Below, one piece after another: positions 20,685 to 60,273 of a DNA stretch of 64,000 nucleotides (positions within the stretch are counted from its first letter, which is position 1; every line of letters begins with the position of its first letter). Below the pieces are notes generated by a model that made no database searches, was not told the DNA's origin, and worked only from the letters and a program-made list of their open reading frames with translations. A program made the translations under genes and the position numbers. Origin of the DNA: Geothrix sp. (GTDB taxonomy: Bacteria > Acidobacteriota > Holophagae > Holophagales > Holophagaceae); NCBI RefSeq assembly GCF_030219325.1, contig NZ_CP126625.1:3336857-3400856 (forward strand). Reading direction: 5' to 3'.

Positions 20685-21157
20685 CGCACGATCGACCCCT
20701 TGCACCGATGGCCCCGGATCCCTCCCGGCGGGCCTTCTGCGCCACGGCCTGCGCCCTGGCCATGGCGACGGCCCTCCGCGGAAGCACGCAGACGCCCGCC
20801 CCCGGAGAGCACCCGCCGGATCCCCACCCCGTGAAGCTCACGGAAGCGACCCGGGCCCAGCTGACTCCGGGGACGGTGCTGGACTACCGCAGGCTCGGCG
20901 CCTTCTACCTGGCTGCGGATGACCGGGGCGTGTTCGCCCTGACGGCCATCTGCACCCACCGCGGCTGCCTCGTGCTGTCAGAAGGCCCCACAGGCTTTGG
21001 CTGCCCCTGCCATGACAGCGCCTACAACCTCCAGGGCGAGGTCACCGAAGGCCCGGCCAAGCTCCCCCTCCGCCACCTGGCCGTGCAGGAGACCGAGCCT
21101 GGTGGCCGGCTGCAGGTGGACACCTCCACCACGGTGCCTCCGGAGCTCCGCCTTTGA
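20681..21157 (+). CDS. Tat-exported Rieske [2Fe-2S] protein
   Basis: A 158-residue protein with a twin-arginine signal (PSRRAFCATACALAMA). The Rieske cluster ligands are intact: CTHRGC and CPCHDSAY. It folds before export, as expected for a cluster protein. No cytochrome b partner is nearby, so it is not part of a bc complex; it could be a periplasmic redox sensor or electron carrier. It overlaps the phosphoesterase gene and is followed 62 bases later by a membrane-bound sigma factor. Confidence 0.9.
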   Translation: MTHDRPLAPMAPDPSRRAFCATACALAMATALRGSTQTPAPGEHPPDPHPVKLTEATRAQLTPGTVLDYRRLGAFYLAADDRGVFALTAICTHRGCLVLSEGPTGFGCPCHDSAYNLQGEVTEGPAKLPLRHLAVQETEPGGRLQVDTSTTVPPELRL

Positions 21158-25043: not shown

Positions 25044-25970
25044 TCAGCCTCCGCAGCAGGTGGGCGCGCAGCCACAGGCCCGGGGGCTCTTGGTGGCTTC
25101 AAGCTGCAGGCTCAGCACGGCACCCGCCGCGGTCTCCAGTTCCTCAGGCCCCAGCTCTGGGTACCGCTGGCGGGCCGCTTCCATCAGCTCGGGCGAGAAC
25201 ATGTCCAGGCCGTAACGCCGCTCGCCCGCCACGGCCAGGCCGAGGAAGCCCGCCGCCTCGATGGCCTTGAGGTAGTCCGCCTTCAGCAGCGCCCCGGCCA
25301 CGCAGGCGCCGTAGATGTCCATGTCCTGACGGATGGCCTCGGGCAGGGGCCGTTCCAGCACCAGGTCGGAGACCATCAGCCGCCCGCCGGGCTTCAGCAC
25401 CCGGTAGGCTTCGCGGAAGGTGCGGGCCTTGTCCGTGCTGAGGTTCACCACGCAGTTCGAGATGATGACGTCCACGCTGGCATCCGCCAGGGGCAGGGCC
25501 TCGATGTCACCCAGCCGGAACTCGACGTTCGCGTAGCCGTGGGTGGCGGCCAGGGTGGTGGCGCGCTCGATCATCTGGGGCGTCATGTCCACGCCAATGA
25601 CGCGGCCCGTGGGTCCCACGCGCTTCGAGGCCAGAAAGGCGTCGAAGCCCGCGCCGGAACCCAGGTCCAGCACCGTTTCGCCGGGTTTCAGGGAGGCCAG
25701 GGCCACGGGATTGCCGCAGCCCAGGCCCAGGTTGGCACCCTCGGGTACGGCGGCGAGGTCCTGCACGCCGTAGCCCAGGCCCAGGCTGGCCGCACCCGGA
25801 TCGGAATCAGGGCCGCAACCGCAGGATGATGAGGAGGTCGAGCAGCAGCTTGGCTGCGCCTCGACCTGGGGGTCCGGGGGTATTCGCGCAGCGAGGGACC
25901 CCCGGGTGGAGTTGGTGACGAAGCCCGCGTAGCGTTCGCGGACAGCAGTTTTGATGGTCTGGGAATCCAT
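25044..25970 (-). CDS. arsM: arsenite methyltransferase
   Basis: A 308-residue SAM-dependent enzyme that methylates arsenite. The SAM motif is [25 protein letters not shown] follows. The As-binding cysteines are in [10 protein letters not shown] and GACVAGA, with more cysteines near the N-terminus (42, 43, 50, 52) and in the tail CGCAPTCC. Product methylarsenite is more toxic, so co-encoded ArsP-like export makes sense. ATG 25970 has AAAGGA upstream. Confidence 0.94.
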
Positions 25971-36704: not shown

Positions 36705-36725
36705 ACCTCCAGGGGTTGCAATAAA

Positions 36726-36758
36726 GCAGAGGGCGGGCCCACGGGCCCGCCCTCTGCT
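36726..36758. terminator. strong bidirectional terminator
   Basis: A 14-base stem starting GCAGAGGGCGGGCC and its complement lies between convergent genes (DUF2846 gene and ppk1), followed by TTG on the plus strand and TTATTG on the minus strand. Confidence 0.75.
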
Positions 36759-36771
36759 TGTACCGGCCCGC

Positions 36772-48993: not shown

Positions 48994-49922
48994 AGCGCAT
49001 CCTCACCGCCCTCACCCTGGTGGCCGTCCTGGCCGGCCTGGGCCTGGGCTGCAAGAAGCCGAAAGCCGTCGTCGACAAGGGCGTCACGGCCACAGAGCTG
49101 CTGGCCACCGCCGACAAGCAGCTGAAGCAGGGCAAATTCAACGAGGCCCGCACGACCCTGCGCCACCTGGAGCAGTACCTGCCGGGCTCGGCCGAGTTCC
49201 CCAAGGCCAAGCTCATGCTGGGGGACAGCTTCTTCTTCCAACCCAGCCCCAGCTACCCCGAGGCCGAGGTCGAGTACGCCAGCTTCCTGAACTACTTCCC
49301 CCGGCACGAGCTGCGGGACTATGCCATGTACCACCAGGCCCTGTGCCACTTCTCCTCCATCGAGAGCGCCGAGCGCGATCAGACGGAGACCCGCAAGGCC
49401 CTGACCGGCTTCCAGCAGCTGATCGCAGAGTCCCCGGGCAGTCCCTATGCCGGCGAGACCCGGGCGAAGATCCTCCAGTGCTGGCGCCGCATCGCCGAGC
49501 ATGAGCTGATCGTCGGCGTGTTCTACGTGAACACCTATTTCTACCCCGGTGCCGAACGCCGCCTCAAGAACCTGCTGGAGACCTACCCCGACTACGTGGA
49601 CCGTGAACGGGCCTACTTCTACCTGGGCGAGGCCATGCGCCAGCGCCTCCTCGTAGAGACGGACGTTGTCCAGTTCAACAAGGACTATCTCGCCAAGCGC
49701 GAGAAGGCGGATTTCAAGGAATTCACCCGAGAGCAAGTTGAACAGTACAACAAGGATTTCGTGTCCTTCAGTGAAGTTCAGATCAAGGGCTATCGCGCTG
49801 AAGCCAAGAGCTACTACCAGAAACTGGTGGAAAGCTATCCCGGCACGGAATGGGCCCGTCGCGCGGCTGATCGGCTGATCACCATGGGCACCAGCGGGGT
49901 CAAGGAAGAGTTGGATAGTTGA
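48990..49922 (+). CDS. bamD: outer membrane assembly lipoprotein BamD
   Basis: A 310-residue TPR lipoprotein (lipobox GLGC, Cys 21) of the BAM complex that inserts outer-membrane proteins. TPR-like blocks: ADKQLKQGKFNEARTTLRHLEQYLPGS, YPEAEVEYASFLNYFPRHE. The stop codon lies at the start of a conserved two-hairpin element. Confidence 0.88.
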   Translation: MKRILTALTLVAVLAGLGLGCKKPKAVVDKGVTATELLATADKQLKQGKFNEARTTLRHLEQYLPGSAEFPKAKLMLGDSFFFQPSPSYPEAEVEYASFLNYFPRHELRDYAMYHQALCHFSSIESAERDQTETRKALTGFQQLIAESPGSPYAGETRAKILQCWRRIAEHELIVGVFYVNTYFYPGAERRLKNLLETYPDYVDRERAYFYLGEAMRQRLLVETDVVQFNKDYLAKREKADFKEFTREQVEQYNKDFVSFSEVQIKGYRAEAKSYYQKLVESYPGTEWARRAADRLITMGTSGVKEELDS

Positions 49923-50000
49923 TGCTGTCTGGGGGTTCCTCGCTGACGAGAACACCCCCGGGCCCCCGCTAAAGGGGCGGGCAAAGCCCGCCGCTTTAGC
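49918..50000 (+). ncRNA. two-hairpin structured element after bamD
   Basis: Starts at the bamD stop (GTTGATG), then hairpin 1 (GGGGGTT-CCTCG-CTGA-CGAG-AACACCCCC) and hairpin 2 (GCTAAAG / CTTTAGC with inner GCGGGC / GCCCGC). A related element lies after rpmA at 60170-60248 with different bases that still pair. No U-tract follows. It may act on mRNA ends. Confidence 0.6.
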
Positions 50001-50025
50001 TTTCACCCCAACCTGGAGGCGCCCC

Positions 50026-59911: not shown

Positions 59912-60172
59912 ATGGCTCACAAAAAAGGCGTAGGTTCCAGCCGCAACGGTCGCGATTCCCACTCCCAGCGCCTCGGCGTCAAGGAGTTCGGCGGTGAGCA
60001 GGTCACCGGCGGCTCCATCCTCGTCCGCCAGCGCGGCACCAAGTTCAAGGCCGGCATCAACGTCGGCATGGGCAAGGACCACACCCTGTTCGCCCTCATC
60101 GACGGCAAGGTGCGCTTCCAGGACAAGGGCCAGAGCGGCCGCTTCATCCACATCGATCCCATCGAGGGTTGA
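59912..60172 (+). CDS. rpmA: 50S ribosomal protein L27
   Basis: An 86-residue protein starting [20 protein letters not shown], without the Firmicutes-type N-terminal extension. Ends at a two-hairpin element. Confidence 0.97.
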
Positions 60173-60248
60173 TGTTGTCCGGGGGTCCCGCGCTGCGCGC
60201 ACACCCCCGGAGCCCCCACGCACAGGCCGGGCGGAGCCCGGCCTGTGC
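60166..60248 (+). ncRNA. two-hairpin structured element after rpmA
   Basis: Homologous in layout to the element after bamD: GTTGATG over the stop, hairpin 1 (GGGGGT-CCCGCGC-TGCGCGC-ACACCCCC), shared CCCCCGGxGCCCCC, and hairpin 2 (GCACAGGCCGGGC / GCCCGGCCTGTGC). Stem bases differ from the bamD copy but pairing is kept. Confidence 0.6.
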
Positions 60249-60273
60249 TCATTCCACACCCACCAGGAAGTGA

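Follow-up and report, generated by a model that had tools for sequence, protein, structure and literature searches.

Small repeats scattered through a genome as a rule keep out of genes and lie loosely between them. The double-hairpin element that directly follows bamD in a Geothrix genome recurs at a fixed distance behind the stop codons of many unrelated genes, and so offers a natural experiment on the making and replacement of gene ends. It raises the question of whether DNA is inserted at gene ends, or whether selection spares only the copies that land there. Judged from sequence comparisons, the element is probably a mobile repeat of two hairpins that settles specifically at gene 3' ends, and its second hairpin would act as a weak-tailed terminator.

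Structure of the element behind bamD

The window, a stretch of 64 kb, carries bamD (Pfam YfiO, 6.2e-32) on the forward strand, and the element directly adjoins its TGA stop codon (49920–49922). All parts of the element lie on the same strand. A conserved 5-nt 5' end, TGCTG (TGYTS in the family; 49923–49927), leads from the stop codon into hairpin 1 (49927–49963; covariance model score 64.5 bits), which folds into an outer stem, GGGGGT/ACCCCC, and an inner stem, CTCG/CGAG. A C-rich spacer (49964–49967; CCCCC in the family) joins it to hairpin 2 (49968–50000), which folds into a terminator-like 15-bp stem with one mismatch and an AAA loop and is followed on its 3' side by a short T run, TTT, at 50001–50003. 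The two hairpins had been described in an earlier note on this DNA, and both the sequence and the RNA fold place them where that note did. Hairpins are common at high G+C, and chance palindromes in a GC-rich genome could be suspected; this reading is hardly credible, as the fold energy of the element, −51 kcal/mol, lies below the −33.8 averaged by shuffled sequences (z −5.0, equalled by none of 200 shuffles), the strict hairpin-1 pattern has no match in 100 shuffles of the window, and family E-values reach 4e-15.

Two more copies lie in the window. The one behind rpmA (60171–60250, forward strand; hairpin 1 at 60178–60211, hairpin 2 at 60220–60248) shares the fold plan of the bamD copy (z −4.2) and, as the earlier note had reported, differs from it in stem bases that still pair (CTCG/CGAG versus CGCG/CGCG in hairpin 1; GCTAAAG/CTTTAGC versus GCACAGG/CCTGTGC in hairpin 2). 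The third (25832–25913, reverse strand) lies in frame in an open reading frame (25970–25044) identified by Pfam as a methyltransferase, which we take to be arsM, and has no counterpart in the sister species G013. Behind bamD at loci L233, L243, L245, L249 and L250 there is a related hairpin type with a ACCGCCTGCTCGCTTCGCTCGCGATGT interior, the same outer stem and the same position after the stop codon, which may represent a second family.

Family and distribution

A covariance model of hairpin 1 only, built from seven aligned copies, detects 20 copies in the window's own genome (G000) at E<=0.02, with best E-values down to 4e-15. Read one by one, 12 of these directly follow a stop codon, two are tandem followers, one lies inside a gene, three follow a native terminator (one of an RNase P RNA, one of a tRNA-Leu), and two are of other kinds. 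When 100 relatives were scanned with the same model, 56 matched at E<=0.1. All 47 genomes of the genus carry copies (4–48 per genome), 7 of 14 other Holophagaceae genomes match at E<=0.1, and beyond the family 2 of 39 genomes match, both at an E of about 0.07, with none of the 39 at E<=0.01. Scanning genome contigs with the strict pattern returned at least 120 stretches, and the 80 titles listed are Geothrix, Holophagaceae or Acidobacteria. The family is thus found mainly in Geothrix; its repeat unit of about 76–80 nt reads ATGYYS-TCCGGGGG-(inner hairpin)-CCCCCGG-N-CCCCC-hairpin 2-GCTT. With 20 copies in one genome and copies in all 47 of the genus, the origin from one family that the earlier note had offered as its minimal reading is clearly right, and the covariance-model search of the genome and its relatives yields further copies in related genomes. 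The counts below draw on 140 copies collected with a pattern in which the outer stem of hairpin 1 is fixed, so that diverged copies are missing.

Carriage by phages was rejected, as viral contigs contain no exact match to the element pattern. A known RNA family was likewise rejected: the window has no match in Rfam 15 at the gathering score, and six element loci gave only sub-threshold hits (E 0.28 or worse). Among open-licence PMC papers, we found no Geothrix repeat of this kind.

Covariation of the two hairpins

The earlier note took the compensating differences between the bamD and rpmA copies as a sign of selection for RNA structure. Two non-orthologous copies are not enough to show such selection; permutation tests on both hairpins and the rpmA orthologues do support it. 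Hairpin 2, whose stem is mostly 12–13 bp (82 of 137 copies) and whose loop usually has three bases, pairs 6.06 of its 8 distal positions with its own arm versus 3.86 with shuffled arms (137 copies; largest value in 1000 shuffles, 4.15). In 42 distinct 33-nt versions of hairpin 1, 155 of 168 cells of the inner stem are paired, whereas 2000 shuffles average 133 and never exceed 144; conservation of the outer stem proves nothing, being fixed by the search pattern. Structure is retained in the alignment, and the claim of the earlier note survives this check. A CRISPR-like array was rejected, because the variable part is a self-complementary hairpin. A short peptide was also rejected: the ATG after the stop opens a frame, but hairpin-1 lengths vary (mostly 33, 34 or 43) and no frame is conserved.

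At the orthologous rpmA site the element is present in 22 of 30 species examined, and all 13 pairs of hairpin 2 are intact, with none broken, at each of the 22 sites (the palindromic pattern matched both strands, so that n=44 corresponds to 22 sites). Both-sided changes occur at two pairs, 10 and 13, which were the ones left free by a search pattern that fixed pairs 1–9 and 11. The interior of hairpin 1 is exchangeable. Read across the 22 species, 15 have a short interior, an extra hairpin (B) is present in 2, a larger branched insert (C) in 3 and both together in 1, and 1 is diverged; a separate tally of types is rough, and one of its C rows (L336) looks false. The B+C form folds into a multi-branched structure with a closing stem that is again GGGGG/CCCCC, and at another site two species that are 98% identical upstream differ by the B insert alone. 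Occupation of the rpmA site in most species with compensatory changes, and the swapping of the hairpin-1 interior while the site persists, would also fit a fixed functional 3'-UTR module (terminator plus stabiliser) that is copied by selection or gene conversion and does not move, an explanation that we regard as unlikely in view of the copies described below. Five species without the element behind rpmA (TAG stop; L198, L201, L204, L208 and L212) have that gene end filled by another long palindromic repeat, built of units like CACGGAG/CACGAAG.

Placement at gene 3' ends

Among the 112 copies with both neighbours called, 104 are in sense with respect to the upstream gene and 8 are not; the gene downstream of the 104 is co-directional in 56 cases and convergent in 48. 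In 55 of 80 copies the distance from the upstream stop codon to the start of the element is exactly 5 nt, compared with 4.7 copies expected under uniform placement, and when the upstream proteins are grouped into 30 families, 23 include a case of this exact spacing. The set of 80 is confined to sense-oriented copies within 150 nt of the upstream gene that lie outside the window, away from locus edges and outside called genes; both the orientation and the spacing counts rest on a home-made ORF caller. Nine copies were scored as inside a gene, of which four are in arsM (L111 twice, L122 and L139), and the remaining scores (L054, L072, L080, L083 and L099) are apparently errors of the ORF caller. 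Sense orientation and exact spacing after stop codons would be expected of a fixed 3'-UTR module as well. Copies lying farther downstream are rare although random insertion followed by selection would tolerate them, which argues for either targeted insertion or a selected position.

The 84 copies directly after a stop codon use TGA 42, TAA 25 and TAG 17 times, against a background of 279, 58 and 142, so that TAA is over-represented and TAG under-represented at copies. Selenocysteine insertion or programmed readthrough was rejected, as all three stop codons are used and the lengths behind them keep no frame. Between filled and empty alleles, protein length is usually equal. A TGA in the filled and a TAG in the empty allele is found at four sites: a putative pilC, acsA, whose "empty" allele is one without hairpin 1, a position near 20980 in G013, and position 109556 in G026. 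The filled allele at 82515 in G006 encodes a protein that has lost three codons relative to the empty one.

Stop codons are not the only gene ends occupied. Other copies follow a terminator hairpin and its T run, including that of RNase P RNA (four loci by Rfam), copies in arrays begin behind the hairpin 2 of the preceding unit, and in three Geothrix genomes, as well as in a fourth from another genus, the element starts right after the CCA of tRNA-Gln. These CCA copies may reflect one or two ancestral events; of the eight matches to the pattern used, four are tRNA-Gln with the element, a tRNA-Leu has no clear one, and three are not tRNAs. It is conceivable, if doubtful, that the element always inserts in sense at gene 3' ends as such, be they stop codons, terminator T runs or the CCA of tRNA-Gln. 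No mobile element of bacteria is known to us to recognise where a stop codon lies. If this one did so, insertion would be guided by an RNA product (a transcript, the ribosome or a mature tRNA end), representing a new mode of target choice, and would also provide the genome with a standing stock of ready-made terminators.

The sense-only orientation and the nature of the sites (terminator T runs, tRNA CCA ends and stop codons) could be accounted for by RNA-mediated insertion at gene or RNA 3' ends, in the manner of group IIC introns or by another form of reverse transcription. However, stop codons are not known as RNA 3' ends, and RVT_1 at E<=0.001 is present in 15 of 47 genus genomes (14 over the cut-off) and absent from 32, including G000, G018 and G025, making this route improbable.

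Putative terminator role of hairpin 2

Hairpin 2 is a GC-rich stem-loop at a gene 3' end, as is characteristic of intrinsic terminators. The earlier note considered the element to have no U-tract, which was too strong: besides the TTT behind bamD, the five bases after the hairpin-2 stem include at least two T in 112 of 137 copies and at least three in 74. Its conclusion that the element is not a simple terminator holds insofar as hairpin 1 is additional, whereas hairpin 2 looks like the terminator of the upstream gene. Against a terminator role, the T run is short, and a terminator scan of the analysed stretch gave fewer sites than shuffles did, 2 versus 5.0. From its position, its structure and its alternation with simple terminators, we infer that hairpin 2 is a weak-tailed terminator that has been taken over by the upstream gene.

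Copies in frame within genes

Coding copies were found in two genes only, arsM and rlmN. The methyltransferase gene at 25970–25044 contains one in-frame unit in the window; its G013 counterpart has none, whereas three further loci have one or two. In rlmN, in-frame units of 78 nt number three in G002 and G046 and two in G033, and there is none in G000, G006 or G013. The RlmN proteins of G002, G033 and G046 accordingly have two to three extra units of ~26 residues, located immediately before the DRVTLCLSSQ stretch. A fixed 3'-UTR module would not be expected to appear in frame in arsM and rlmN with varying unit number. Direct test cases for the question of insertion versus selection are provided by rlmN, with its zero, two or three in-frame units, and by the rpmA site, where 22 of 30 species carry the element and its interior is swapped between forms.

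Turnover between sister species

Comparison of G000 with its sister species G013 over 181 kb of near-collinear sequence (identity mostly 86–95% in the larger alignment blocks) gave 12 element sites, based on model hits and alignments read one by one: 5 are shared, 4 are found only in G000 and 3 only in G013. With 7 of the 12 sites unshared between sister species, the family shows the turnover of a mobile repeat. In G000, two of the sites filled only in G013 have in place of the element a simple hairpin unrelated to it, whose stem is AAAAA/TTTTT (CTCCAAAAACGGGC...GCCCGTTTTTGGAG). G002 and G033, which are about 95% identical, have arrays of unequal unit number, and the acsA site of G002 carries hairpin 2 without hairpin 1. 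No target duplication or clean integration footprint came to light in the filled and empty pairs compared, since the flanks between genes have diverged even where species are 95% identical. A missing copy could have been lost rather than never gained; we nevertheless consider that presence and absence between the sisters probably reflect movement. The unshared sites, the tandem arrays and the copies placed after an existing terminator (RNase P RNA, tRNA-Leu) are also difficult to reconcile with a fixed 3'-UTR module.

The element is short, non-coding, multi-copy and present or absent at orthologous sites, as MITEs are. Being palindromic, intergenic, about 80 nt long and arranged in arrays with tandem junctions (e.g., CTT joined to GATG), it could also be a REP-type palindrome moved by a RAYT or IS200-IS605-like Y1 transposase, with the sense bias arising from single-strand target choice. 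This is improbable, since Y1_Tnp (PF01797) is present in only 5 of 47 genus genomes, not including G000, and is lacking in 42, copy-rich ones among them; the stop-codon placement, and the lack of a consistent 5' tetranucleotide besides the stop-codon overlap, also speak against it. As a resident driver, a Y1 transposase (5 of 47 genomes) or a reverse transcriptase (15 of 47) was rejected as not general enough.

As a plausible course of events for a mobile double-hairpin repeat, the element would be placed in sense directly behind a gene 3' boundary, i.e., a stop codon, a native terminator, a copy of its own or a tRNA CCA. Hairpin 2 would thereafter serve the upstream gene as a transcription terminator or 3'-end stabiliser, and through this role its sequence could drift while its pairing is kept. 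Hairpin 1 would be the shared part of the family and the one recognised by the moving machinery, its interior gaining and losing sub-hairpins.

Comparison with known systems

With none of four known systems, i.e., SPRITE, Rickettsia palindromic elements (RPE), the double-hairpin elements of Allomyces and group IIC introns, does the element share all the defining features tested. SPRITE of Streptococcus pneumoniae, a small repeat resembling a Rho-independent terminator with 30 copies in the genome studied (PMC3049150), is the closest in behaviour: it is likewise a terminator-like hairpin near gene 3' ends, is confined to one species group and has no known transposase (PMC3049150). However, SPRITE is described there as a single, AT-rich 18-bp duplex with a long U-rich tract (PMC3049150), whereas the Geothrix element has two GC-rich hairpins, a short T run, a hairpin 2 that varies between sites, a fixed 5-nt spacing after the stop and in-frame copies in genes. 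RPE are palindromic repeats of about 150 bp, both intergenic and in frame inside protein genes, many of them within genes (PMC10969869). In-frame copies also occur here, in arsM and rlmN; compared by description, the Geothrix element differs in having coding copies in these two genes only and most copies behind stop codons.

The Allomyces elements, which are mitochondrial, are similar in having two hairpins (by name) and species-variable insertions; an RNA intermediate has been suggested for them on the ground that they lack flanking duplications, and the passages on them in PMC2800124 contain no link to stop codons. Group IIC introns insert at terminator hairpins (PMC3898094), resembling the copies found after terminators, but most genomes here are without a reverse transcriptase and most copies follow stop codons, not hairpins. 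REP/BIME with RAYT are palindromic extragenic repeats, at times in arrays and usually over 100 per genome (PMC2817692); the Geothrix element has far fewer copies, arrays with the same instead of alternating orientation, and 42 of 47 genomes without a Y1 transposase.

Other structured motifs

Two further hairpin or motif sequences were noted. A motif, CCCCTCCGGGGGTGAGGCCATCCACCGAACCGCAAGGTTGCCGGGCCTC, without a match in Rfam, is conserved 3' of one gene in the window's own genome (L273, ~7690) and at the orthologous positions of G013, G002, G033 and L082, and is possibly a separate structured RNA. In the window itself, a perfect 16-bp hairpin (AAGCAGAGGGCGGGCC/GGCCCGCCCTCTGCTT) stands at 36724–36759 without hairpin 1.
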